Positions 7,663 through 31,581 of a DNA stretch of 36,820 bases are shown here, one piece after another. The translations under genes were made by a program, and so were the position numbers. The notes under the pieces are model-generated. The model did no database searches. It was not told the DNA's origin and saw only the letters and a program-made list of their open reading frames with translations. The first letter of the stretch is position 1, and every line of letters starts with the position of its first letter. Source of the DNA: Mycoplasmatota bacterium (GTDB lineage: Bacteria > Bacillota_I > Bacilli_A > Acholeplasmatales > Acholeplasmataceae); assembly GCA_024650045.1 (NCBI GenBank), contig JANKMU010000017.1:1-36820 (forward strand), given 5' to 3'.

Positions 7663-8925
7663 ATGAAAATCAACATTTTACAGATTTACAAGCAAATTAA
7701 CAAAAGAAGGGAGGAAAGATTGTATGAAGCAGAACCTATAGGATCTGCAATCAAGTTTAAAAGAAAAGAAATGAATATGACTCTAGAAGAAAGTTCAGAA
7801 GGAATATGCAGTGTCTCATATTTGTCAAAACTAGAAAACAACCTGATCATTCCAGGCAGTCGATTCATTGAACAATTGAAAAAAAGATTTGATTTAACTG
7901 ATACAACTGGTGCTGATTACGAACATTATGTATCACATTTAAATGTTGTTATTGATTCAATGATCAATGAATCAGATTCACTGGATGAAATCGTATTGGA
8001 ATATGATAAAAGAAATGATTATCAAGCATTCCTCATACGCCTAGGTGTATACACAATCAAAAAAGATTATGATGAAGCAAGTAAACATTTTTGGGATATT
8101 AGATCATTGATACCCAATCTAAATGACAAAGAATTATCATTATTACTTATTTGTTTAAGTGACATATTATTTAGTCAACAACAATATGGTGATGCAAGTA
8201 AAGTATTAGCATGCATACCATCAACTAACAAATTGGACTCTAGACTCGTCATGTTATTCATGAAAAACAAGTTGTTAAATGCATTCCGTATGCACAAGAT
8301 TGCTGACATATTAAATTTGTACACAGAATATGTTAGTATATTAATTGAGTCTCAACATTATCATTTTCTTCAAGATATTAGGAGTGAATATATTTTATTT
8401 CAATCCATGTATCAAGATCCTAATGAGATAAAACAAAAACTGATGAAGATGAATCATACATCAGAAATTGAACAGAATTACACTTTAGCACAAGCATATT
8501 TTAATTATCAACAATATGATGAAGTTATGAAATATACTTCACCGTATTACAAAAAATGCTCCAAGTTTCTGATTATTCATTTAATTGCACTAGATTACAT
8601 GAAAAAGGAAGATGCAATCAATCAAGTTCTTGATGAAGTAAATCAAATGACTGATTTAAATCAAACTGCAAAACTCATTATTACACACTTAAAACACAAA
8701 TACAATATGGATAAATTAAGGTTATTGAATTACTTGAGAAGAGAGATTTTAGGCATCAAAGCTTTAACAGATGATTATCAAGTTCTAGACTACTTAATGC
8801 ATGATACACAACATCTGTTTTCAGAGCATCAACATTATAAAGAAGCAGTTCAGGTTGTTAAAAAGTTTCTACCAAAACTTAAGATGTTAAAAAGAGCTGA
8901 ACAACAAAGAAATACTGAAGATTAA
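7663..8925 (+). CDS. XRE-family HTH regulator with a helical (TPR-like) C-terminal domain
   Basis: The protein has 420 residues from ATG 7663, which follows GGGAGGG (7653-7659); the in-frame TTG at 7651 would put that site inside the gene. Residues about 25-85 form an XRE/Cro-type helix-turn-helix (IGSAIKFKRKEMNMTLEE, then SVSYLSKLENN). The remaining 330 residues are almost wholly helical, with repeated pairs such as YDEASKHF and YGDASKVLACIP, resembling degenerate tetratricopeptide repeats. HTH plus TPR is the layout of RRNPP (Rgg/PlcR/PrgX-type) peptide-responsive regulators, but no signal peptide gene is visible next to it. It has its own promoter and terminator and directly precedes the ABC exporter operon, a possible target. 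Exact role unknown. Confidence 0.75.
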   Translation: MKINILQIYKQINKRREERLYEAEPIGSAIKFKRKEMNMTLEESSEGICSVSYLSKLENNLIIPGSRFIEQLKKRFDLTDTTGADYEHYVSHLNVVIDSMINESDSLDEIVLEYDKRNDYQAFLIRLGVYTIKKDYDEASKHFWDIRSLIPNLNDKELSLLLICLSDILFSQQQYGDASKVLACIPSTNKLDSRLVMLFMKNKLLNAFRMHKIADILNLYTEYVSILIESQHYHFLQDIRSEYILFQSMYQDPNEIKQKLMKMNHTSEIEQNYTLAQAYFNYQQYDEVMKYTSPYYKKCSKFLIIHLIALDYMKKEDAINQVLDEVNQMTDLNQTAKLIITHLKHKYNMDKLRLLNYLRREILGIKALTDDYQVLDYLMHDTQHLFSEHQHYKEAVQVVKKFLPKLKMLKRAEQQRNTED

Positions 8926-12711: not shown

Positions 12712-12763
12712 AAAAGGATGTGATGTCCACTATCATAAGATAGAGGTGAAATCATGTCCTTTT
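12712..12763 (+). promoter_or_regulatory. Long hairpin covering the start codon of the Ig-repeat gene
   Basis: AAAAGGATGTGAT (12712-12724) can pair with ATCATGTCCTTTT (12751-12763) over 13 bp with two G-U pairs. A smaller hairpin CTATC/GATAG (12730-12734, 12739-12743) is nested in the loop. The 3' arm contains the ATG at 12754 and runs into T-rich sequence, so the structure could act as a terminator of the ABC operon or as a block to translation of the next gene. Function is inferred. Confidence 0.45.
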
Positions 12764-14823
12764 TATTATCGTTTTTTAGTTTCTTTACTGTATTAACTCA
12801 TCGAATTGATTGGATTAACGATTTTTTGACTCTAGAATTACACGATAATGTCGATGATTATATAGAAATGCCAGAAGCTAGATTATATATCAATGATAGG
12901 CGAGTATATGATCCAGATATGTATTATATAAGAAATGGTGTTGAATGGACATATATCTCAACTGTAAATACAAGTATAGTTAAAGCTTATACAATTAAGT
13001 ATCGTGTCTATTTTCCAACATACTCTATTTCACAAGTAAAAACGATAACATTTAATGTCGTAGATATCATTGCTCCAACATTCCATCATATTCCAAACTA
13101 TAAAATCCCATTAAACCAAAAATTACCTGATTTAGACTCAAATATCGTTTATAGTGATAATTATTACAAATTAGAAGAATTGAGTCTAAACATTGATACA
13201 ACTAAAATTGTATTAAATAGAATTGGTAATTATCCGATTGAGTACCGTATCTCTGATCCATCGGGAAATGTTACGATAAAAACTGGATATCTTGAAGTTT
13301 ATGATCACCTACCTCCAGAGATAAAACTAAAAAAAGAGTTAATCTTGCCTTATAATACTATATTTGTATGGCAAGATTACTTATCAATTATTGATAATTA
13401 TGATTTAGTTCTGCAAATTGATATTGATGATTCTCAAGTTGATTATTCTAAGTTAGGTGTATATCCTATTTCAGTAACAGCAACCGATCAAAGTGGGCTT
13501 AGTGAAACGATTATTCAAGATTTAACTATTATTGATAATGAAAAACCACAGCTTATCTTAAAAAGCCAACCACCGCCTATTGAAGTCTTTTCAAATTTAA
13601 GTGATAGTGAATTGAAATCATATATTATAGATATAAATGATAATTACGATGATTTATCTATTGATGATGTCATTGTTACACATGACATAGAATATGATGT
13701 GTTAGGGTATTACTATATTTATTATAGAGTATCAGATTATTCTAACAACATACTTGATACTAAAATAAAAGTTCAAGTCGTTGATCAAACAAAACCTGAA
13801 ATTTGGCTGAATGAACCACTTGTTTTTAATGTCTTTGATCCCATACCCTTCTTAGATACATATATAGATTACTCAGATAATTACACACATAAAGACCAAT
13901 TAATCTTAAAAATTACAGCTTCATTCAAAATGAATATCGTTGGTAAATCTATCGTTACTTTTGAAGTTAGTGATACTTCGAAAAATAAAACGACCTATCA
14001 TACATATATTGAAATCGTTGATATAACCCCCCCTGAACTATATCAAATCAACGATATCATTATCACTGATTTCCAAAAAAAATTATTAAGCTCTTTTTTT
14101 AATTATGAAGATAACTATGATGTAAAATCAAATTTAAAACTTGATATCAATGACCAGGATATTGATTATGAAAAAATCGGTAGTTATCCACTTTATGTTA
14201 CAGTTACTGATACCTCGGGTAATGTGATACAGTTAAGTTCGGAAATCATTGTCATAGATATTATTGAACCTACTTTATTGTTAAAACAAAGTGCAGTTCA
14301 AATACAAATTGGAAATGAACCCCTTGATCTATATTCATATATTTATCAAGCCTATGATAATTACGATAATTTAACCATTGATGATGTCGTTATCAATCAT
14401 CAAATTGACTATGACACAATCGGTGTTTATGAGGTTTTATACACATTATCTGATCAGTCGCAAAATATGAGTCAGCAAATATTGTATGTTTCAATTGATG
14501 ACCGGATTGCACCATGGATATCTGGTCCACCGGTCTCAATGACAATGCATGAATTTTTTAATCCTTTAGATGGTATTGAAGCAGGAGATAATCTTAACGA
14601 TTATGAAATAACTTTCTTTCCGAAAACAATTGATACATCGACACCAGGAGACAAAACAATAACATATGTTATTACCGATTCAAGAGGTAACTATACAACT
14701 TTTGAACGCACTATTACAGTATATCCAGCAAAGGAAAGACAAGAAGTAACGATATATATACCTGTTATGATTGTTACAGTTTTAGGGATAGCATCTTGTT
14801 TTTATATTTGGAAGAAAGTGTGA
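12754..14823 (+). CDS. Membrane-anchored surface protein with about eight Ig-like (DUF5011/HYR-like) repeats
   Basis: The product has 689 residues. GAGGTGA at 12743-12749 supports the ATG. An N-terminal hydrophobic stretch (residues 2-14) may be a signal segment, although it lacks basic residues in front. Then follow about eight units of 75-85 residues, each with the pattern DNYD, then IDYxxxGxYxxxYxVxD, then SGN or similar, then hhVhDxxxPxh (for example GSYPLYVTVTDTSGN). This is the beta-sandwich pattern of bacterial Ig-like DUF5011/HYR domains. Residues about 666-686 form one C-terminal membrane helix ending in a basic tail (IWKKV), so the repeats should face outward. Such proteins serve as stalks or adhesins. 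It follows the ABC operon by 51 bp; no separate promoter is seen. Confidence 0.75.
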   Translation: MSFLLSFFSFFTVLTHRIDWINDFLTLELHDNVDDYIEMPEARLYINDRRVYDPDMYYIRNGVEWTYISTVNTSIVKAYTIKYRVYFPTYSISQVKTITFNVVDIIAPTFHHIPNYKIPLNQKLPDLDSNIVYSDNYYKLEELSLNIDTTKIVLNRIGNYPIEYRISDPSGNVTIKTGYLEVYDHLPPEIKLKKELILPYNTIFVWQDYLSIIDNYDLVLQIDIDDSQVDYSKLGVYPISVTATDQSGLSETIIQDLTIIDNEKPQLILKSQPPPIEVFSNLSDSELKSYIIDINDNYDDLSIDDVIVTHDIEYDVLGYYYIYYRVSDYSNNILDTKIKVQVVDQTKPEIWLNEPLVFNVFDPIPFLDTYIDYSDNYTHKDQLILKITASFKMNIVGKSIVTFEVSDTSKNKTTYHTYIEIVDITPPELYQINDIIITDFQKKLLSSFFNYEDNYDVKSNLKLDINDQDIDYEKIGSYPLYVTVTDTSGNVIQLSSEIIVIDIIEPTLLLKQSAVQIQIGNEPLDLYSYIYQAYDNYDNLTIDDVVINHQIDYDTIGVYEVLYTLSDQSQNMSQQILYVSIDDRIAPWISGPPVSMTMHEFFNPLDGIEAGDNLNDYEITFFPKTIDTSTPGDKTITYVITDSRGNYTTFERTITVYPAKERQEVTIYIPVMIVTVLGIASCFYIWKKV

Positions 14824-18404: not shown

Positions 18405-18938
18405 ATGATTACTGATACATGGAGTGAAGAAAAACAACAAGAGTTTGATATTGAGTACGGTAAACTTTTTGGTGGACAAGTACGTGCGATGAAATCTCTA
18501 TATAAAAACAAAAAGGATCCAATCTTTTTAAATGATATCCTAAATAATGTTAGTCAAAATGTTTATCAAACACTTATGCAAAATCGATTGGATTTTGCGG
18601 AAGCTTTCCTAGAAAGAATGCTCTTAAGTTCGCTAGATTATGACGTAGTAATTATTAATGGACATATTGAAAACGAGTTTTCAATATATGTTTATTTTTA
18701 TAATGATCATCACACCATAGAATATGATGAAATTCGGATAAAACAAGTTGAAGACGTCAAAATGTTAATCGAACTTATTATGTATATTGGTAATGTTTAT
18801 CGTAGTTTAGCTAGATATGATAAGGATATTGATAAAAATTTATTAGATTACGAATTTCATCTAGGATTTAAAGCAGATGTTTCAGTAGTTATCGAACAAT
18901 CAACAGAGATTGAGGAACCTAAAAGATTTTATAGTTAG
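18405..18938 (+). CDS. Conserved-looking protein of unknown function
   Basis: This is a soluble 177-residue acidic protein with no family I recognise. AGGAGGAG at 18391-18398 is a very good ribosome site. The N-terminal half is helical and charged (WSEEKQQEFDIEYGKLFGGQ, then KNKKDPIFLNDILNNVSQN); the middle has beta-like strands (YDVVIINGHIENEFSIYVYFYN); the rest is a helix with MLIELIMYIGNVYRSL. No Cys, no signal peptide, no membrane segment. It lies 18 bp after dnaE and 8 bp before a cation transporter gene, clearly in one operon, which says little about function. Codon use matches its neighbours. Confidence 0.75.
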   Translation: MITDTWSEEKQQEFDIEYGKLFGGQVRAMKSLYKNKKDPIFLNDILNNVSQNVYQTLMQNRLDFAEAFLERMLLSSLDYDVVIINGHIENEFSIYVYFYNDHHTIEYDEIRIKQVEDVKMLIELIMYIGNVYRSLARYDKDIDKNLLDYEFHLGFKADVSVVIEQSTEIEEPKRFYS

Positions 18939-19893: not shown

Positions 19894-19927
19894 GGATGTA
19901 AGTAATCAATAGAAAGGCGGAATATAT

Positions 19928-22900
19928 ATGATGCCATCGTTATTGTTGATTCAATGGGGTGTTGTAGGCTTCTTCGTGGTCGCACACTTTTTAATAGGTT
20001 TCTTAAGAGGAACCAGTAAATCTACATATTTTACAATTGTCAACATCCTGATGACAATTGTTACTTTACTATTGATTTCATTGATATCGATCAATCTAAT
20101 CTTGTCACCTTCATTCACATTTGAAGATTTAGTGCTTCGTATACAAAGTATGACGGGAAATATTATCCCTCAAGATATTGTTACTTATCTAGTTGACCCA
20201 GCACTTACTGGATTTATTGTAGCAATCATTGATTTGGTATTAAGAATCGTTGGATTCTTTTCACTATACCCAATCATTAAAGGATTTTTTACTTTGATTA
20301 TTTTTAGACCAATATGGAGCTTTGGAATAAAAAAATCGTTACTTAGAAAACAAAATGAAAAATTACAAATAGAATTTAATGAAAAGCAAACAGGAAAAAA
20401 GAAATTTGTGCCTACTAAACGACTTAAGAAAAATATTTCAAGTCGCTTTTTTGGTGGAACAATTGGCGCAGTCAATGGTCTCTTGATTGCTTTTATATTT
20501 TTATTACCTGTTTTAGTCATGGCTAGTTTTGTTTCAGGGTTTAATGATACTTTAACAGTTGCCAATCAATCTGATACTGAACTTAGTACATCAAATGGAG
20601 AAATTATTACAATACCTAATGAAGTTCAACAATATCTTAATGAAGTTGCAGAAATGAATGAAAAAGGATTTTCTTCAATAACAAGACAAATTGTTGTTCA
20701 AGGAAAGCCAATTGATCGTTTAATATTTGATATGATTTTTACAACTTATGTCGTTGAAGAAGATGATAAAGTTCCAATAAACTTTATCGGTGAGTTAGAA
20801 GGTATCATTGGAATAGCTGAAGTTATATATGCTGGTGGTTATTTAGATGATGATTTTGACTATCGTGACATATCTAGTGATAATTTAGATGATCTAGATA
20901 AAATATTTGGTCATATAGGTAATTCTAACTTAATTGGTTATATGATTCCTTTCGCGACAAAATATGGGGTAGAAAATTTATTACCTGATTATATTGGTGG
21001 TACAAATCTTATGGATCGACCAGGAAGTGCAGCAGCACTTGATGAGTTTACAAGTATTGACTGGTCTGTTGAGTTCGATAACGTTTATGGTATCGTCGAA
21101 GCTGTTCTTGAGTTTGGTTCAGTTGCTGAAATATTAAATTATGCTAACAATCCAGAGTTATTACTTGAATTATCTCCTGAAGAAGGTGTTCGTTTAGCAA
21201 ATATCATAAGAGCAATAGGAGATATGGAAACATTCTCATTATTTAGTGCAGCTGCAGATTATGCTACAACACTCAATGAAGTTCAACAAGAGATCTCTTG
21301 GATGGACCCATTAGAAGTAGAAGATTATCTACAAGATCGACTATCATTTATTATTGATAATCCTAAATTTTTCACTGGTTCAGATGGTGAGATTTCTAGA
21401 ATTGCAAATTTAATTGAAGCTATATATTCTGATGAGTTCGGTGACGTTAATCTCGTAGAACTTGTAAATAGTGTAAATGATCCTCAGACATTCTTGGATA
21501 ACCAAAACGCAGAATGGACAGGTTCATTATTAGAAAAAATTGTTGAAATTCAACTATTAATAGAATCCATCCCAATTGGAGTAGATTACGGTGTATATAA
21601 TACATTAGGAGACCAAATTGAGCGAGAATTAGCTGATCAGATTTCTGAAAGTCTAAATGAAGTTGGTTGGGATGAGGAAATATTAAATGTTGGTGATATT
21701 TATAAAGAAGTTTTAAAATTAGGAATTTCCAGTATTCTTGGTGAAAATCCTAATTACTATGCATATGTTGATCAAGTTGCCGTTAATAACATGGATTCAA
21801 TAAGAACCATTGTTGAAAAAGTGTTTGAAGATAGCCAAGTAGTTAATACAGCCATAGAACTAGCAAGTCCCGTTATTATTGATACACTTGTAGAAGATCC
21901 AGAATTAAAAGAATTAATACAAGATGCTTTAATTAGCGATCCTGAATCCGGAGTTGTTGACTTTAGATTTGGGCAAGAAGTTAATCATTTATTGACGATG
22001 GTTGAATCTATTTATCAATTTACAACAGCTACTCAATTAGCTAATTTATCTTCGATGACTCAAGATGCTCAAATTGAGGTGTTTGCTAGTTTTGGGTCAC
22101 TTACTGAAATACAATATAATCGATTCACATCAGCAATCGAAGAACTTCAAATATTTGAACGTACTGGAGCAAACGGTCTAGAATTTGCAAAAAATAGATT
22201 CGCAATTGAACAGTTGTACGTTCCTGAAGAAGTAGAGTTAGGAAAAGAACTATCAGCAATTGTTGGTTTTGTTTACTATGCTGCTTCGTATACTTATGAG
22301 AATAGATTGAACTATGATACATATGAAGAGATAGATTTTGCACCTTTATTAAAAGATGAAGTCTTCAGATCGCATCTTTTATCAACTGAGTTAGAAAATC
22401 ATTCTAACTTATTACTCAGTAACATAGCTCATAATTTAATGGTTTATGCAGGAGATCAGGCAATTAGTCAATATCTTGCTATTCCTGAAAATCTAAGCAG
22501 TGCTTCTCCTGAAAGTGAAGATTGGATGGATGAGTTAAATGCTTTATTAGGTGCAGTATTTGATTTAGGTGGATCTTTTGAAGGTTCAGAAGCTATGACA
22601 TTATCCGTAAGAGATGTTTTGACAACGGTACAAAATCCTGTTTCAGCACCTATTTCATTAATCACACAATTCCAAGATATCGTTAAAGCTAATGAAGCGT
22701 TTGGTAGCTTGGATTCCTCTCAAATATTAAGATCTTCAATCGTCAATGCAATTGATACAATGGGACCCACATTTACCACAAGTTTAAATGGATATGAACT
22801 TAAGACACCAGAAATTGCACGTGATGGTAATATGATAAAAATAGGTATGATTGTCGAGTTAATCCATGGATTAGCGACAGTCTTTGACGATGCAAACACT

Positions 22901-25900
22901 ACGTTAAATTATCAAACATTTGCAGATTTTTCAAGTGCAACTTATAAATATGATTATGTGAATGCATTTAATCATTTAGAAGATTCATCATTAGAAACTT
23001 TAGCAGATATAACCTTGCTGAGAGGTTTTATTAGCGATGCAATGCTAAGCCCTGATTTACAGGCTTATGCTAGAGATATTGTTAATAATTCAGGGAACAT
23101 AACCGTCAGTGATGGTTTCTTAGCATTTGAAAGAGTAGATAATGTATTATCAACAACCGATTTATCTGAATTGTTTATTTCAGTTAAGTCAATGCAGATT
23201 ACTGAACCATTTTATGCGAGTCCAGGCACTGGTATTTATACATTCCTTCAAACATTTGATGATCAGAAATTAGATCAAGTTTTCGATTCTAAGATATTGA
23301 AAGAAATATTTACCTTTGCATTAGCAGATCCAGAAGCGCTTCAATCACTTGCTGGAATTGTAGAAACAGCATATTCGGGTGCTCAATCAACAAATGGCAT
23401 TTTAGGTGCAATCAATCCTAGATTCTTACCAATCGTGAGTGCTTTAGGGTCTTATAGAGATGAAGATGATTTATTTGATGTTAACGAGATTAAAGCATTA
23501 ATAAAAGCTTTCAATAATTTAAATGTTGAATCAGTTGCAGATTTAAATGCATTAGCAGATTTAACTGTTGCCCACAATAAAGTAAAGGATACGATGGTGA
23601 TTGAAGACCTATTTAGTTCAAATTGGTTATATGATCAAATCAATTATGTCTTTACTAATGATTTATTCTTAGAAGAACTTGCAGAGATTGCTTCACAACA
23701 AGTTCTAAATCAAACAGGTCTAAACAAACAATTTACTAAAGATGACGTCAGTTTTGCTCTAGATAAATACAACTTAATTGAAGTTGATGGTGCAAGAGAA
23801 GGCGGCGTTAAAGTTGAGGAAATTAAGAAATTTATTTTATCTGGAACAAGATTGGATTGGGGTACACTAGAACTTGGTGCAGGTGCAGGTATTGCATCTA
23901 ACCTATCTACGATTTTAATGCAAGATGGAACAGATGGTTTACGTCATATTGATGTCATGTTTGAATCCAATTTATTAGTTGCAATTTTTGATAAATTATT
24001 AAACTTTGAATACAATGGTATAGGTATGGATGAAGTTGCCATTGCATTCTTGAATACAAAACTTGATACTGTTGCTGCACTCGAAGGATTGCAATTACAA
24101 AAAGAGTTCTTACATTATGACATACGTGCATATGATGAAAATGAAGTGTTAAGAAAAGAAGAAATCATTGAAATGGTAGAAGCTGTATCCTTTGTTGATT
24201 TAACGCAAACCATAGGTATTCCTACTTTCGTTCAAATGATAGAAGATGATACGTTTGATGAAATTTTTGATTCATACATACTTCATAGTTTCATTTCTAA
24301 TGCATTAACAAATGAAGATGTTCAACAACTAGGTATTACCAAAGCGAATAACGCACAAGAAATTGTAGAATTAGCAAATGATTTCTTAGCTGTTGATCCT
24401 ATATTAATGGATGGAGATTTATTTAAATCAGAAGAGATTAAAAATATCTTAATTGCATTAAATACAATGGGATTAACGGATTCAGCAGGATTTAATAGCA
24501 TAGGTCTTGCTACATTCTCAGAACTCAATGGTAGAAATGTTGATATAGATACAGGTGAAGACGATTTTGATCGTGTGTTTAATGCTGGTTATATTTATAT
24601 TATTTTAGACCGTGCACTCAAACTTGAAAGTTTAGGTGATTATGTCGGAACGATGTTAGGTAATGCACTTAACACAACAATTGAAGATTTAGATACAACA
24701 CCATCAAATGCAATGCTTGGAACACTTCTAGATTCTGAAATTGAAAACAGTAGAGTTCCTAAAGCAGAATTTAGAAGAATGTTTACTTCATTTGGTTTAC
24801 TTGGTGATATTGGAGCAATCGGTTTAGGAACATTTACAAACATGGTTGATACAGCAGCTCCATCAGATGATTTTACAACATTTACCGAATCAGATTATAT
24901 TTATACTATATTAGCTAGATTATTTGATCATCCTGCATTTGGCGATTACGTTGGAGATATGTTATCGGGTGCATTTGGCGATGATGATGTCGACTTAGAT
25001 ATGACACCACCTAGTGACAGTAAAGGTACTGTTCTCGGTGATGTTGAAGAAGGTTTATTAACAAGATACGAACTAAGACAAATGATGATTTCATTTAAAT
25101 TCTTAGGTTTAGATGATGGAACAGATGTTAATGTTGAAACTATTATGAACTTAGTTGGCGAAGATACAGATGGAAATGGCGAAGATGACTTTGATCAATT
25201 CCTAGAGTCTATCTACATTAGAGACAAAGTATCTATTTTACTCATGTCTGATTCAATTATAGACAAACTAGCAAATGGTAGATTTACAGCAGAAGCATTT
25301 AGATTACTAATTCCACAAACAGCTACCGAAACAGTTGATGCTCGTGACCGTTTTACGAAAGTAGAACTTTATGATTTATTTAACGGATTAAAGATTTTAG
25401 GTGTTTCAGATCTTGAAGGATCGAATATCGGATTAGATACAGTTACAAGTCTAGAGGATGCAGAAGTTTTACAAGTATTAGATTCTTCATACTTATATGT
25501 AACAATTCATTTAATGCTAGATACTGAAGAAAGTTTGAATGTTCCATTAGATGCATATGAAGATACTGGTAATTATGATGGTTTAGTTAAAAAAACAGAA
25601 ATCGTTAATTTACTTAATGCATTTGATGTCTTTGGAACTAGTAATCCTGAAGAAATTGATGCTAATACAGTTACTATTGCTGAACTTCAAGAGTTACTTG
25701 ATTTAAATTCAGTTATTATTGATCAAATTATATCCGATGCGATTGTTGACGCACTTGATTCAATTCCAACAAGTTCATATAATGATGATCAATCAAGATT
25801 ATTAAAAGCAGAACTATACAATTTAGTGGAAGTTTTATTAATTCTAGCAGATAATGATGATACACAAACATTAGCAAGCTTAACACCGATAGATACAGAT

Positions 25901-28684
25901 GCAATAACGAGAGCTAAATTAAGAGGTTTATATGATTTAGATTCTAGATTGGTTGACCGCATATTGTCACAATCTATTATTGACAGTGGCATAAGTATTC
26001 ACTCTTTAAGTTATGATGAGGAAAGTGAATTAGATGAGTTTGACAATAAACTTGATTTAAAGAGAACTGAATTATTAGCATTAATTGATGCATTAGATAT
26101 ATTAGAAGTTGAAATCGCAGATGCGGATACTTTGGATACGAATACGTTAACACCAGATAATATTGATGCATTATTGGATTTAGGATCACCAATTATTTAT
26201 CGTTTAGTTGGTGAAAATATAATTACTCAAAATTTACATACTGATGAATCGCTTTCAGAAGTTGGTGATGTTAATTATGATGAAAACGCAATTGGTTCTG
26301 ATATAAAAGTGCCTGAGATGTATGCATTAGTTGAAGCAATGCGTGTCATGAACATCGTTAACTTAGGAACACCAATTGATGTTGATATAACAACAATTGC
26401 ACAACTTCAAGCATTACATTATCTTGGTTTAGGCATTGACCCAATCGAAGATTTACACCAATCACTCATTGTTCATAGATTGTTGTCAGAATCTATTATT
26501 GGAGCACTTGAAATACCAACAGATGCTTACATGACTGGAACTGTACTAGACTTAGTCCCTGATGAAATCCAAGGTGTTATTTATTCATTACTTGTATTAA
26601 GTGGTGGCGATGACACACAAACGATTTTAGGATTAACTCCAGTAGATACAACCGTCTTGACACCGGATGCGATTGAAGATTTACTCGATTTTGATGCACT
26701 CATTATTTACAGAATGGTTGCAAGTGGAATCATTGATCAAAACTTACAAACCGATGAATCATTAGCAGAAGTTGGAGATGTTAACTACGATGCAAACGCA
26801 ATTGGTTCTGACATAAAAGTGCCTGAAATGTATGCATTAGTTGAAGCGATGCGTGTGATGAACATCGTTAACTTAGGAACACCAATTGATATTGATACAA
26901 CGACAATTGCTCAATTACAACAACTTCATTATCTAGGTTTAGGTATTGATCCAGGTGTTGATGAATATGATTCGGTTATTGTTCATAGATTGTTATCGGA
27001 ATCCATTATTGGTGCATTAGTTATACCAACCGATGCTTATATGGTTGGAACATTACTAGACTTGGTTCCTAATGAAGTTCAAGGCGTTATTACTTCATTA
27101 CTCGTATTAAGTGGTGGTGATGATACACAAACGATTTTTGGATTAACTCCAGTAGATACTACAGTATTAACTCCAGATGCAATTGAAGATATCTTAGACA
27201 CAAACACATTAATTAATTATAGAATGGTTGCAGACGGAATTATTAGTGCAAATCTCGATACAGATGAATCACTGGCAGAAGTTGGTGATACTAACTATGA
27301 CGTAAATGCAATTGGATCAGATATTAAGATTTCTGAAATGTATGCATTAGTAGAAGCAATGCGTGTCATGAATATTGTTAACTTAGGTACACCAATTGAT
27401 ACCGAAAATGCAACGATTGCAAATTTACAATCTCTACATTATCTAGGTTTAGGTATTGATCCAGTTGTTGATGAGTATGAATCAGTTATTGTTCATAGAT
27501 TGTTATCAGATGGTATGATAACATCATTAACTATTCCAACCGATGCTTATATAGTAGGATCAATATTGGACTTATTACCTAGTGAAATACAAGGTGTCAT
27601 CGATGCATTGTTATTAATAAGTGGCGGGGATGGTTCACAAACATTAAACGATTTAACTCCAGTTGCAAATAGCACAATGACTCCAGACTTGATAGAAGAC
27701 TTATTGGATTTAGATAAGTTAATTATTTACAGATTAATTGCAGAAGGTATTATTAGTGCAAGTCTTGAAACAGATGAATCACTGGCAGAAGTTGGTGATA
27801 CTAACTATGACGTAAATGCAATTGGATCAGATATTAAGATTTTCGAAATGTATGCACTTGTAGCAGCAATGAGAATTATGAATATTGTAGATTTATCTGT
27901 AACGATGGATGCTACAACGATTACCATTGCACAATTACAAGATTTACATGATGTTGGTTTAGGTATAGGAACACCTAATGATTATGATTCAAGAATTGTA
28001 CATAGAATCTTATCAGATGGTATTATTACTTCATTAACTATTCCAACTGATGCATACATGGTTGGTTCAACATTAGATTTAGTTGCTGATGAAATCCAAG
28101 GTGTTATTGATGCTTTATTAGAAGTTAACGGTGGTGATGATACAGGAACACTATTTGGATTAACACCTATTGATGATTCAGCATTAACGCAATCTGTTCT
28201 TGCTAACTTGATTGCTATTGATACATTGATTGTTTATAGATTGATTGCAGAAGGTATTATTTCAGCAGGAATCGCAACAGATGAATCTTATGCAGTATTT
28301 GGTGATGATAATTTTGATTCTAATGCAGTTAATGCAGATATTAAGATTGATGAAATGAATCATATTGTGGAATCAATGGATATTTTGGGAATCACAAACA
28401 TCTTAACAGTTGCATCTGATATTACAGTTGCTAAATTGCAAGCATTAACAGATCCTGAAATTGAATCATTAATAGAAGCAGACACAGGTGGTCCAAATAC
28501 AATTATTTACTACATTGTTTCAGCAACAGTTGATCCAGACAATGATTTATATGACTTCTTAGTAGCGACTGATCCTGTAACATATCCAGGACCTGCAGAT
28601 GATTATTATGTACTAGATGCATTTGATAATAGACTAAGATTGAAGAGAACTGCAATTTCAGATGCTATCGATGAATTGCCTTAA
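19928..28684 (+). CDS. Giant (2918-residue) membrane-anchored acidic repeat protein with a CvpA-like N-terminus
   Basis: I do not recognise a family for the whole protein. Residues 1-210 hold about four membrane helices (5-25, 33-58, 95-118, 182-203). GFLRGTSKSTYF after helix 1 and RFFGGTIGAVNGLLIAF in helix 4 resemble CvpA-family proteins. Basic loops after helix 1 and between helices 3 and 4 put those loops inside and the remaining 2700 residues outside. That part is strongly acidic, has no Cys, is predicted mainly helical, and contains degenerate repeats of about 75-105 residues from at least residue 1450 (pattern SxhIhxRhhSxxII, then ExxxhhxAhxhhG, then LTPxxIxxLLD). From residue 2089 they form a regular 170-residue tandem array. 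A loop DTDGNGEDDFD near residue 1750 resembles a Ca-binding loop. No LPxTG. AAAGGCGG precedes the ATG; an ATG one codon later is equally possible. Confidence 0.85.
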   Translation: MMPSLLLIQWGVVGFFVVAHFLIGFLRGTSKSTYFTIVNILMTIVTLLLISLISINLILSPSFTFEDLVLRIQSMTGNIIPQDIVTYLVDPALTGFIVAIIDLVLRIVGFFSLYPIIKGFFTLIIFRPIWSFGIKKSLLRKQNEKLQIEFNEKQTGKKKFVPTKRLKKNISSRFFGGTIGAVNGLLIAFIFLLPVLVMASFVSGFNDTLTVANQSDTELSTSNGEIITIPNEVQQYLNEVAEMNEKGFSSITRQIVVQGKPIDRLIFDMIFTTYVVEEDDKVPINFIGELEGIIGIAEVIYAGGYLDDDFDYRDISSDNLDDLDKIFGHIGNSNLIGYMIPFATKYGVENLLPDYIGGTNLMDRPGSAAALDEFTSIDWSVEFDNVYGIVEAVLEFGSVAEILNYANNPELLLELSPEEGVRLANIIRAIGDMETFSLFSAAADYATTLNEVQQEISWMDPLEVEDYLQDRLSFIIDNPKFFTGSDGEISRIANLIEAIYSDEFGDVNLVELVNSVNDPQTFLDNQNAEWTGSLLEKIVEIQLLIESIPIGVDYGVYNTLGDQIERELADQISESLNEVGWDEEILNVGDIYKEVLKLGISSILGENPNYYAYVDQVAVNNMDSIRTIVEKVFEDSQVVNTAIELASPVIIDTLVEDPELKELIQDALISDPESGVVDFRFGQEVNHLLTMVESIYQFTTATQLANLSSMTQDAQIEVFASFGSLTEIQYNRFTSAIEELQIFERTGANGLEFAKNRFAIEQLYVPEEVELGKELSAIVGFVYYAASYTYENRLNYDTYEEIDFAPLLKDEVFRSHLLSTELENHSNLLLSNIAHNLMVYAGDQAISQYLAIPENLSSASPESEDWMDELNALLGAVFDLGGSFEGSEAMTLSVRDVLTTVQNPVSAPISLITQFQDIVKANEAFGSLDSSQILRSSIVNAIDTMGPTFTTSLNGYELKTPEIARDGNMIKIGMIVELIHGLATVFDDANTTLNYQTFADFSSATYKYDYVNAFNHLEDSSLETLADITLLRGFISDAMLSPDLQAYARDIVNNSGNITVSDGFLAFERVDNVLSTTDLSELFISVKSMQITEPFYASPGTGIYTFLQTFDDQKLDQVFDSKILKEIFTFALADPEALQSLAGIVETAYSGAQSTNGILGAINPRFLPIVSALGSYRDEDDLFDVNEIKALIKAFNNLNVESVADLNALADLTVAHNKVKDTMVIEDLFSSNWLYDQINYVFTNDLFLEELAEIASQQVLNQTGLNKQFTKDDVSFALDKYNLIEVDGAREGGVKVEEIKKFILSGTRLDWGTLELGAGAGIASNLSTILMQDGTDGLRHIDVMFESNLLVAIFDKLLNFEYNGIGMDEVAIAFLNTKLDTVAALEGLQLQKEFLHYDIRAYDENEVLRKEEIIEMVEAVSFVDLTQTIGIPTFVQMIEDDTFDEIFDSYILHSFISNALTNEDVQQLGITKANNAQEIVELANDFLAVDPILMDGDLFKSEEIKNILIALNTMGLTDSAGFNSIGLATFSELNGRNVDIDTGEDDFDRVFNAGYIYIILDRALKLESLGDYVGTMLGNALNTTIEDLDTTPSNAMLGTLLDSEIENSRVPKAEFRRMFTSFGLLGDIGAIGLGTFTNMVDTAAPSDDFTTFTESDYIYTILARLFDHPAFGDYVGDMLSGAFGDDDVDLDMTPPSDSKGTVLGDVEEGLLTRYELRQMMISFKFLGLDDGTDVNVETIMNLVGEDTDGNGEDDFDQFLESIYIRDKVSILLMSDSIIDKLANGRFTAEAFRLLIPQTATETVDARDRFTKVELYDLFNGLKILGVSDLEGSNIGLDTVTSLEDAEVLQVLDSSYLYVTIHLMLDTEESLNVPLDAYEDTGNYDGLVKKTEIVNLLNAFDVFGTSNPEEIDANTVTIAELQELLDLNSVIIDQIISDAIVDALDSIPTSSYNDDQSRLLKAELYNLVEVLLILADNDDTQTLASLTPIDTDAITRAKLRGLYDLDSRLVDRILSQSIIDSGISIHSLSYDEESELDEFDNKLDLKRTELLALIDALDILEVEIADADTLDTNTLTPDNIDALLDLGSPIIYRLVGENIITQNLHTDESLSEVGDVNYDENAIGSDIKVPEMYALVEAMRVMNIVNLGTPIDVDITTIAQLQALHYLGLGIDPIEDLHQSLIVHRLLSESIIGALEIPTDAYMTGTVLDLVPDEIQGVIYSLLVLSGGDDTQTILGLTPVDTTVLTPDAIEDLLDFDALIIYRMVASGIIDQNLQTDESLAEVGDVNYDANAIGSDIKVPEMYALVEAMRVMNIVNLGTPIDIDTTTIAQLQQLHYLGLGIDPGVDEYDSVIVHRLLSESIIGALVIPTDAYMVGTLLDLVPNEVQGVITSLLVLSGGDDTQTIFGLTPVDTTVLTPDAIEDILDTNTLINYRMVADGIISANLDTDESLAEVGDTNYDVNAIGSDIKISEMYALVEAMRVMNIVNLGTPIDTENATIANLQSLHYLGLGIDPVVDEYESVIVHRLLSDGMITSLTIPTDAYIVGSILDLLPSEIQGVIDALLLISGGDGSQTLNDLTPVANSTMTPDLIEDLLDLDKLIIYRLIAEGIISASLETDESLAEVGDTNYDVNAIGSDIKIFEMYALVAAMRIMNIVDLSVTMDATTITIAQLQDLHDVGLGIGTPNDYDSRIVHRILSDGIITSLTIPTDAYMVGSTLDLVADEIQGVIDALLEVNGGDDTGTLFGLTPIDDSALTQSVLANLIAIDTLIVYRLIAEGIISAGIATDESYAVFGDDNFDSNAVNADIKIDEMNHIVESMDILGITNILTVASDITVAKLQALTDPEIESLIEADTGGPNTIIYYIVSATVDPDNDLYDFLVATDPVTYPGPADDYYVLDAFDNRLRLKRTAISDAIDELP
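26192..28499 (+). repeat. Tandem 510-bp coding repeats in the giant gene
   Basis: Equivalent points recur at 26192, 26702, 27212, 27722 and 28229, a period of 510, 510, 510 and 507 bp (170 residues, one with a codon lost). Each unit has two related halves of about 78 and 92 residues, the second starting at VIVHRLLS (for example 26468, 26978). Copies 3 and 4 share 73 identical bases (27260-27332 and 27770-27842), which implies recent duplication or conversion. The fifth copy diverges and is incomplete. Confidence 0.85.
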
Positions 28685-28752: not shown

Positions 28753-30180
28753 TTATAATTGATCAATTAAGTTTAAATAAAAATTTACTCCACGAACAAC
28801 ATTGTCAATTGTTATATCTTCATCAATACCATGAATCTTAGCTAAATCAGCTTTTGATAAATCCATAGGTGAGAACTTATAAACTCGCTCACAGATTTCA
28901 TGATAATGTCTAGAATCAGTCGTAGCAACCATCAAATATGGTGCAACTATTACATCCGGCCATGTTTGGCAAATTGCTTTTTGTAACATATTAAATCCTT
29001 CATCTACTAAAGAAACTGTTGATGCTTCACAAACTGCGGTTGTTTCTACTTCAATGTTATGATTTTTAATAACCTTCTTGATTTTTTGAATGACTTGATT
29101 AGATGTCTCTCCTTGTCTTAAACGATAATTAACACCAATTGATGCAGTAGAAGGTAAAACATTAATTGCTTCACTACCTTCAGCTAACGTAAATGCTTGT
29201 GTTGTTCTAAACATAGACAAGAATTCTCCACCGGTTTTTTTAGCAATCAGTTTAACAACTGGAAGGAATAACCATAAATTAGCAAACAATACTTTAATGC
29301 CTAATGATTTCGAGTGAGGAGCTAAAGATTCAAATAATTGTCTTACTGGGTATGTCATCTTAAGTTTAAATTGTTTGTTTTTATTTAGAGCTATAACTGC
29401 TTTTGATAAATCTGTAATTGGTGTGTTTTTTGGAGGAGTAGATGCGTGTCCACCTTTTGAATGAGCAGTTAACTTAATATTTAAAAAACCTTTTTCTGCA
29501 ATACCTACAACAGCAGCTTTTTGACTTACGCCAGGAAACATCTTAGAAACGATTGCTCCACCTTCATCAAGTACCATATAAGGCTTTATGCCTTTTTCTT
29601 TTAGATAGTTAACAATTGATGGTGCTGATGGACCAAAGACTTCTTCATCACCTGAAAATGCTAAGTATAAATCATTTTTAAATGTTTTACCGTTTGCTAA
29701 TGCATGCTCTACAGATTCCATAACAGCATTTAAACTGCTTTTCGTATCTAATGCACCGCGTCCATATACAGTTTTCTCATCAATTTTTCCGCTAAAAGGA
29801 TTATGAATCCAATCTCCAGAAACAGGAACAACATCATAATGTGACATGAAGACTATTGGTTTCTCATCAGATTCACCTTTGATGAAAAATAATACACCAG
29901 CTTCATGTTCACTATATTCAGAGACTTCACTTACTTTAGGGAATCTTTCCTTAAGAAAATCTCTAAATTTTTTAAACTCAGCACGATCTACTTTTTTCTC
30001 ATCTAAATTAGAAACTGTTTTAAATTGGATCATTTGAGATAAAGACTCAACAACTCTTTTTTCATCTATTTCGTGTTTTTTCTTCATTTCAGGAAACTGA
30101 GTAGGTTTGAAGTTTGCTGTTCTAGTGACGATAACTAAGAAGATGATTATAGGTATGATTAATAGTGCATACCATTCCAT
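28753..30180 (-). CDS. Membrane-anchored M20-family metallopeptidase (CPS1/PM20D1-like)
   Basis: This is a 475-residue zinc carboxypeptidase or acylase. One N-terminal membrane helix (residues 4-19) is followed by a catalytic domain. Metal and catalytic residues are visible: His114 and Asp116 in HYDVVPV, Asp145 in GRGALDTKSS, Glu179-Glu180 in SGDEEVFG, Asp205 in LDEGG, and the last ligand His450 in IHGIDEDI. The layout fits the Gly-X carboxypeptidase CPS1/PM20D1 branch, which cut C-terminal residues or N-acyl amino acids; the true substrate is unknown. Two basic residues just after the helix are few, so side of the membrane is uncertain. It is the last gene of an operon, its ATG overlapping the preceding stop as TAATG, with AAGGGAA as ribosome site. 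Confidence 0.88.
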   Translation of the reverse strand: MEWYALLIIPIIIFLVIVTRTANFKPTQFPEMKKKHEIDEKRVVESLSQMIQFKTVSNLDEKKVDRAEFKKFRDFLKERFPKVSEVSEYSEHEAGVLFFIKGESDEKPIVFMSHYDVVPVSGDWIHNPFSGKIDEKTVYGRGALDTKSSLNAVMESVEHALANGKTFKNDLYLAFSGDEEVFGPSAPSIVNYLKEKGIKPYMVLDEGGAIVSKMFPGVSQKAAVVGIAEKGFLNIKLTAHSKGGHASTPPKNTPITDLSKAVIALNKNKQFKLKMTYPVRQLFESLAPHSKSLGIKVLFANLWLFLPVVKLIAKKTGGEFLSMFRTTQAFTLAEGSEAINVLPSTASIGVNYRLRQGETSNQVIQKIKKVIKNHNIEVETTAVCEASTVSLVDEGFNMLQKAICQTWPDVIVAPYLMVATTDSRHYHEICERVYKFSPMDLSKADLAKIHGIDEDITIDNVVRGVNFYLNLIDQL

Positions 30181-30839
30181 TATTCAATCATTCCCTTCTT
30201 ATAAAGGATTCTTGCCGTTACTAATGATATAACAACACCTACGGGTACCATAATACCAACTAAACCAGCACTTCCAGGGACGAATAAGAAGAAGATAACC
30301 ATGAATACAATCGGTAACACAGCAATCTTAACGCGCTTCATGACATAGACAATCCCTAAAGCACCAAATAATGCAGGAATAATATTACCAAATGCCGGTT
30401 GCAATGCTTCAGATTCTAATAAAGGTGTTAATGGAATAATTAATATTGCACCAACTAAAATAATTAATGTTGTAATTATACTACTAGATGCAACTGCGAT
30501 TGTTGAGAAAACATCGCCTTCTTCAGTGCCCTTTTCAATATCTAATGCATCTTGTGCATTGAGAGCAGCAGGTACTTTTAAGCTTGTTAAATTACCAGTA
30601 ACAAATGCTAAGTAACTACTTCCTGTACCGAGCATAGGAGTAAAGGTGAAAACTTCAATAGTTGTTACTGGCCAAAAAATAACAGCAGTAGCAATAAAGC
30701 CAGGGAAGAAGTGTTCAGCAGATGGCCATACACCAGTTATTGAACTGATGAGCAATGGAACACTAATAAACAGTGCTAATGCACCAAGCATCCAAATGCG
30801 ACCTTCAAAGTGTAGTTGATCTTGATATGAACGTTTCAT
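30180..30839 (-). CDS. Multi-pass membrane protein, partner of the DUF5058 protein
   Basis: The product has 219 residues with about five or six hydrophobic segments: 17-33, 45-63, 110-135, 147-163, 171-186 and 190-210. No enzyme motif or Cys is visible. A conserved-looking polar segment between helices 2 and 3 (PMLGTGSSYLAFVTGNLTS, then KVPAALNAQDALDIE) may form a substrate path. It sits between the DUF5058-type gene (1-bp gap) and the M20 peptidase gene (overlap), so the three are co-translated. I infer that it and the DUF5058 protein form one transporter; no biochemical role is established to my knowledge. Confidence 0.7.
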   Translation of the reverse strand: MKRSYQDQLHFEGRIWMLGALALFISVPLLISSITGVWPSAEHFFPGFIATAVIFWPVTTIEVFTFTPMLGTGSSYLAFVTGNLTSLKVPAALNAQDALDIEKGTEEGDVFSTIAVASSSIITTLIILVGAILIIPLTPLLESEALQPAFGNIIPALFGALGIVYVMKRVKIAVLPIVFMVIFFLFVPGSAGLVGIMVPVGVVISLVTARILYKKGMIE

Positions 30840-30840
30840 A

Positions 30841-31581
30841 TTATCTTACCCCCAAACTTGCGAATAACATAGCTAATGCCATTGCACCTACCATAGAAAG
30901 TGGTAATGCATAGTTTCTTAACCAATCCCACTTATATTTTTTGATTAACAAGCCAAAAACGATGATGAGTCCAGCTGATGATAACAAAACTAAAATTGAA
31001 AGAACTGATATATATGTTTCATTATCTACAGTAATTGGAGCTAAAACATATCCAACAAAAGCTGAAATTAATCCAAGAAATAACGCATCCATCATGATTC
31101 CGTTCCACTTATTATCTTTTTGCTTAACCTCTTTCATTTTTCCACTCATTTTTTTGAAGAACAAGGGAATAATAAAAAGAGGTGGAATACATCCGAATGT
31201 CATCACCCATAAAGCAGTGATAATAATTTCTGGAGATAAAGTATCACCAATATTTAAATTGAATACACCACTTATAACGTTGATTGCTGCAGGCAGTTCA
31301 TATGTAACAGCACCTAGTGTTCCTAATCTTAAACCAGAAATCATCGGACCGAAAACTTTGCTTAATGCAACCAATCCAATTAAAATTGCAAGCGACGGAG
31401 CAATGCTGAATATCATAGATGATGTTATAGTTTTATTAACTTGCTCTTTTGTATATCCTAAAGCGAAAGCTTTTCTTCTTGCTTTTAATAAAAAAATAGC
31501 AGATTGCATTAGAACATAGACAAAAACCATGCCTACAATCAAATAAATCCACCAAGATCCTAAAAATCCCATATTTGGCAC
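30841..31581 (-). CDS. DUF5058-family membrane protein
   Basis: This is a 246-residue protein with about six or seven membrane helices. The N-terminus (WWIYLIVGMVFVYVLMQ, then FLLKARRKAFALGYT) and the following SSMIFSIAPSLAILIGLVALS, then RLGTLGAVTYELPAA, agree with my memory of DUF5058 proteins of Clostridia, which are found beside M20 peptidases. It is the first gene of the minus-strand operon, with AAAGAGGG as ribosome site. The family is uncharacterised; a transport role for peptides or amino-acid derivatives is inferred from the peptidase neighbour. Confidence 0.75.
   Translation of the reverse strand: MPNMGFLGSWWIYLIVGMVFVYVLMQSAIFLLKARRKAFALGYTKEQVNKTITSSMIFSIAPSLAILIGLVALSKVFGPMISGLRLGTLGAVTYELPAAINVISGVFNLNIGDTLSPEIIITALWVMTFGCIPPLFIIPLFFKKMSGKMKEVKQKDNKWNGIMMDALFLGLISAFVGYVLAPITVDNETYISVLSILVLLSSAGLIIVFGLLIKKYKWDWLRNYALPLSMVGAMALAMLFASLGVR

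Follow-up and report, generated by a model that had tools for sequence, protein, structure and literature searches.

The window analyzed here, a stretch of 36,820 nucleotides, contained a single, intact open reading frame of 2,918 codons (the giant gene). At 8,757 of 36,820 bases (23.8%) and with exact coordinates 19928-28684, it agreed with the initial annotation, which had described one gene as using nearly a quarter of the window. The following features were assigned to it:

19928-28684, plus strand: giant gene, 2,918 aa; intact open reading frame with ATG start, and dN/dS determined against the L061 ortholog
19913-19920, plus strand: Shine-Dalgarno-like sequence AAAGGCGG, 7 nt before the ATG, read directly
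19928-20542, plus strand: residues 1-205, putative four-helix CvpA-like membrane domain, with four hydrophobic peaks, invariant residues and a relation to PF02674
20306-20446, plus strand: residues 127-173, predicted cytoplasmic, basic loop between TM3 and TM4, net positive in 42/42 members
20543-23107, plus strand: residues 206-1060, membrane-near part of the predicted ectodomain; profiles eA and eB (206-640) match 42/42 giants
23141-25531, plus strand: residues 1072-1868, first zone, repeats of about 100 aa
25514-28531, plus strand: residues 1863-2868, second zone, predicted helical repeats of 85/170 aa with the signature S-x-I-I ... K-x-x-E-L-x-x-L-x-x-A
26169-28387, plus strand: 510-nt repeat present at the DNA level in up to five copies (direct-repeat families D1-D3)

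The encoded protein contained no cysteine, while 13 residues were expected at the cysteine rate of the 20 other tallied genes of the window (P about 2e-6). Its pI was about 4.05, with 474 Asp or Glu versus 127 Lys or Arg after residue 230. The composition was thus cysteine-free and acidic, as originally annotated, and this acidic, nearly cysteine-free character held across near relatives. The protein terminated in ...RTAISDAIDELP, with neither a hydrophobic tail nor an LPXTG motif, and started with a multi-helix domain, unlike LPXTG/sortase adhesins, whose layout of a cleavable signal peptide and a C-terminal anchor was not found in the window protein.

The source genome falls in the genus group of Peloplasma aerotolerans, a species of free-living, wall-less, non-motile cocci from a mud volcano (PMC11122141), and shows one copy of the giant gene. 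Comparison with the ortholog of P. aerotolerans M4Ah (L061, 85% identity) yielded a dN of 0.093, a dS of 0.861 and a dN/dS of about 0.11. In every segment dN was far below dS, with the lowest dN values for residues 1471-1870 (0.042) and the membrane domain (0.047) and the highest for the tip, residues 2641-2918 (0.192). Judged from these substitution rates, purifying selection acts on the gene over its whole length.

Upstream of the giant gene were located dnaE, a small open reading frame and a gene for a CDF transporter, while a convergent cluster encoding an M20 peptidase and a DUF5058 protein was found downstream. The order dnaE-CDF-giant was kept in about a dozen loci of group f1; outside f1 there was no constant partner. 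A fixed functional partner was rejected, DnaE and the CDF transporter being constant upstream only within f1. The 177-aa open reading frame between dnaE and the transporter gene (18405-18938) was kept in five relatives and gave no convincing family match. The downstream cluster (28753-31581, minus strand), which also encodes a 219-aa membrane protein, was conserved beside the giant in several relatives and possibly represents a transporter with a peptidase. Elsewhere in the window, an acidic 689-aa protein that combines bacterial surface Ig-like domains with a membrane helix at its C-terminus (12754-14823), encoded behind two ABC exporter genes, is likely a second surface protein. A candidate rotary-ATPase-like operon in the f5 neighborhoods was rejected, its genes coding for NUDIX, thioesterase, ABC-type ATPase and MatE proteins. 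At one locus (L076:979-9491), the giant was directly upstream of mutS2, with a 4-base overlap. Since mutS2 was apart from the giant everywhere else and five mutS2 surroundings contained no obvious cvpA, orthology to a cvpA locus by gene order was rejected.

Giant homologs, for which a search in related genomes had been proposed, proved to be widespread. The window protein matched 35 of the 61 genomes searched, the longest open reading frame there being 4,461 aa. Model A1, built from the membrane domain, had matches in 105 of the 395 genomes searched in the class, representing 59 genera, nearly always at the start of open reading frames of about 800-6,000 aa (the longest about 6,050 aa). Model A6, which joins the first ectodomain module to the membrane domain, matched 109 of 392 genomes of a phylum sample, mostly at the start of open reading frames of about 740-4,560 aa; some of its weaker matches were short CvpA-type proteins rather than giants. 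Members of the giant family occurred in a dozen or more families of the class. Nearly all of the 20 distant members that were inspected combined a start with four transmembrane segments with an acidic, cysteine-poor remainder, and relatives kept a constant N-terminus at total lengths between 1,047 and more than 6,000 aa.

Iterated profiles of residues 1-215, 206-420 and 400-640 matched 42/42 giants, all of which kept the order of membrane domain and juxtamembrane region; the repeats were common to most (37-38 matched by repeat profiles). Four members from f9 lacked these repeats and instead carried many copies of modules resembling residues 400-640. When giants were reversed or block-shuffled as controls, the ectodomain profiles gave no match below 1e-3 except one (4e-4), and the membrane profile matched three block-shuffled sequences (1e-5 to 1e-4), as would be expected where block shuffling leaves hydrophobic stretches intact. 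Genomes of genus g7 (0.5-0.9 Mb) showed no match to the family models, and those of f8 and f18 (0.6-1.2 Mb, some with in-frame TGA) gave only short matches; we take these to be phytoplasma- and Mycoplasma-like lineages. On the evidence of these profiles, the giant belongs to a large, unannotated family and is not a single oddity. No relative in Pfam, NCBIfam or PDB sequences covered the giant and no description of the family was found in the open-access literature. Within those three libraries, the original assertion that no described family has this architecture therefore stands.

In several distant genomes (L148:12082-14499; L140:9164-11998; L146:16559-19000; L147:18406-19998), a second, usually shorter member adjoined the giant on the same strand, an arrangement that hints at a two-part assembly. 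At L074:4452-11388 the giant was divided between two overlapping frames (1,875 and 448 aa), which may reflect a frameshift or an assembly error. At L091:1-10050, neighboring long open reading frames of 1,981 and 1,304 aa were both truncated at the borders of the stretch, and the second contained giant-like repeats.

The hydrophobic segments of the giant spanned residues 5-23, 37-55, 93-111 and 184-202. Residues G24, G28, K31, R173, G176, G180, G184 and P194 were invariant in 23 homologs. The conserved sites of the anchor were glycines and basic residues in the turn between TM1 and TM2 and where TM4 begins. CvpA (PF02674, the colicin V production protein family) likewise has a membrane domain of four helices, with conserved glycines at these two positions. 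The window protein gave no PF02674 match at E<=10, either as a whole or as residues 1-210, and did not reach the gathering score of 29.3 bits. Among 43 homologous N-termini, PF02674 matched 26 at E<=1 (11 of 23 near and 15 of 20 distant relatives; best E 6.4e-7), a number that no other family approached. These matches were mostly sub-threshold, with top printed scores of 28.4 and 28.8 bits, just below the cut-off. A6 additionally retrieved short proteins at E-values of about 1e-5 to 1e-13. Seven of ten that were scanned exceeded the PF02674 cut-off (35-82 bits); they were 226-267 aa long and, unlike the giant, had no large ectodomain. Direct profile-profile comparison of the anchor with CvpA was weak (probability 18.6 and 82.6%), and the N-termini of two giants weakly matched NF033740, the MarP family (best E 0.0011). 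By this transitive evidence through family members, the anchor is CvpA-like: the annotated relationship held through the relatives and through retrieval of short CvpA proteins, but not for the window protein itself. A match of the whole protein to the BCCP model TIGR00531 was discarded as spurious (19.8 bits versus a cut-off of 115.2).

Net positive charge in loops 1-2 and 3-4 together exceeded that in the N-terminal tail, loop 2-3 and the stretch after TM4 in 42/42 members; in the same 42, loop 3-4 was net positive and the 50 residues following TM4 were net negative. By the positive-inside rule, this distribution appears to place the ectodomain outside the cell in all 42 members, which supports, as a prediction, the outward topology originally assumed. 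Precedent for the layout is provided by MarP (Rv3671c), in which four N-terminal helices are followed by a periplasmic protease domain (PMC4992679).

Residues 206-1060 formed a conserved, mostly non-repetitive block, in which F267/D268 and E289 were conserved in the A6 alignment. From about residue 1072 to residue 2868, the giant consisted of repeat units of 85-90 aa, with 18 copies of an E-centered signature at a median spacing of 87 residues. The motifs h-x-S-x-I-I-x-x-T-I-S and K-x-x-E-[IL]-x-x-L-h-x-A were shared by 423-480 family units. An AlphaFold2 model of residues 2141-2480, based on an alignment of the giant's own repeats and those of its ortholog, had a mean pLDDT of 77 and a pTM of 0.74 and comprised 12 helices and only isolated bridge residues. 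Structural comparison of this model gave no convincing match to known helical repeat folds such as armadillo, HEAT or TPR. The annotation of helical repeats was thus upheld for this segment, but residues 206-1060 were not confirmed as helical. A model of residues 1-640 from two sequences reached a pLDDT of only 39, and the rod discussed below is therefore extrapolated from 340 residues. Comparison of residues 206-640 with the repeats gave a probability of 17.5%, too low for us to propose homology.

No enzyme or binding domain was recognized by Pfam in any part of the window protein, including a trypsin-like protease domain as in MarP, and no family of Pfam, NCBIfam or PDB sequences matched over the whole length. 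Partial D-x-D...E loops were visible by eye, but canonical calcium loops (D-x-D-x-D-G-x-I-x-x-x-E) were no commoner than in shuffled sequences (0 versus 0.2-1.2), and Pfam gave no match to EF-hand or dockerin repeats. The initial suggestion of a Ca-binding coat, as far as it relied on EF-hand-type loops, was accordingly abandoned (0 canonical loops versus 1.2 by chance).

By analogy, parts of the giant have precedents in CvpA, MarP and Gli349. MarP shares the four N-terminal helices and an extracytoplasmic domain, assigned in the giant from charge, but its described homolog is 397 aa long and carries a trypsin-like protease domain (PMC4992679). Gli349 of Mycoplasma mobile, compared here through its published description, is likewise a giant of the mollicute surface (3,183 aa); it has a membrane segment at its N-terminus and contains 18 repeats, each about 100 aa long (PMC7052211). 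In contrast to the giant, no CvpA-like four-helix domain has been described for it, and it works with Gli521 in a gliding machine, whereas no such partner was seen here. Since Gli349 and MarP share these features of layout, the characterization of the protein as the opposite of known giants in every respect was overstated. Giant1-5 of Apilactobacillus kunkeei are also very large surface proteins (3,000-8,000 aa) from small genomes; Giant1-4 differ in having a β-solenoid N-terminal domain, and the abstract mentions no CvpA-like anchor (PMC12863079).

The constant anchor, variable-length helical array, outward topology and fast-changing tip fit a surface stalk or scaffold. We give an even chance to the interpretation that the giant is a single-copy, N-terminally anchored stalk or scaffold for surface contact, a role that we infer from these features. 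Its CvpA-derived bundle of four helices would insert without a cleaved signal peptide, with the N-terminus out, the basic loops in and the C-terminus out, and would hold about 2,700 residues outside the cell. The conserved membrane-near region would be followed by a tandem array of largely helical repeats of 85-110 residues, together forming an elongated rod. Repeat copy number would set the length of this rod, and its distal end would evolve fastest. Such a stalk would most likely act as an extracellular scaffold or adhesive spacer that touches surfaces, neighboring cells or matrix. The gene, its conservation, the orientation bias, the repeats, the helical prediction for one segment and the CvpA relationship were computed; from them we infer the rod shape, surface expression and adhesive or spacer role. 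Against a stalk stands the description of P. aerotolerans, which carries the 85%-identical ortholog, as non-motile, with an electron micrograph legend that names only a membrane (PMC11122141).

Many copies of the giant might instead cover the membrane with a dense acidic layer, protecting against phages, solutes or predators without specific binding. Consistent with such a coat, the ectodomain was strongly negative in nearly all members and of great length, and giants occurred in most sampled f1 genera except those with small genomes. Genomes with a giant were also murG-negative somewhat more often than the others (68 of 98 versus 159 of 297), but this enrichment was clustered by family, so that the statistics are not independent. 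Giants also occurred in murG-positive families, which speaks against a coat; as 30 giant-bearing genomes were murG-positive, a tie to the lack of a cell wall was rejected. The single gene copy says nothing of protein abundance, and we consider a coat rather unlikely.

The primary function might alternatively reside in the membrane domain, as a CvpA-type role in envelope homeostasis, export or stress sensing, with the ectodomain serving it as a sensor or as an arm for capture. This domain is the most widely shared part of the giant and is CvpA-related, but CvpA itself has no established molecular activity and 2,700 residues are much for a sensor. Several f3 genomes encode both a short CvpA and a giant, which suggests separate roles and led us to reject the giant as a replacement of CvpA. 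E. coli cvpA mutants are sensitive to deoxycholate, and an exporter-like function has been suggested for CvpA (PMC6705877). Overall, we regard a primarily CvpA-type function as a minor possibility.

The giant might also be a conduit, its helical array moving lipids or solutes between the membrane and a partner outside the cell; an uninterrupted array of repeats on an anchor that is possibly transport-like would suit this. PDB sequences showed no similarity to a known transfer protein, Foldseek searches with the 340-residue repeat model (pLDDT 77) gave no PDB match at E<=0.001, and the best VIA-align Z was 2.9. To our knowledge, bacterial bridge proteins are β-rich, and we judge a conduit very improbable. 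Least probable, and barely credible, is an internal membrane-attached scaffold with cytoplasmic repeats, since the cell interior would suit cysteine-free helical repeats too but charge favors an outside C-terminus in 42/42 members and MarP offers a precedent.

With a surface stalk, one of the largest genes of many small genomes related to Mollicutes, unnamed in the main family libraries, would gain an identity that can be tested, and a cultured carrier exists in P. aerotolerans. Such a stalk would show surface display that requires neither signal peptide cleavage nor a sortase or lipoprotein anchor, and would link CvpA, a widespread membrane protein for which we know of no molecular activity, to extracellular architecture. 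More tentatively, and with slightly less than balanced confidence, the family may represent an ancient, undescribed bacterial surface appendage, in which a CvpA domain anchors a single-chain helical fiber of 1,000-6,000 residues; lineages of the class with and without a cell wall would have conserved it, and strongly reduced ones would have lost it.
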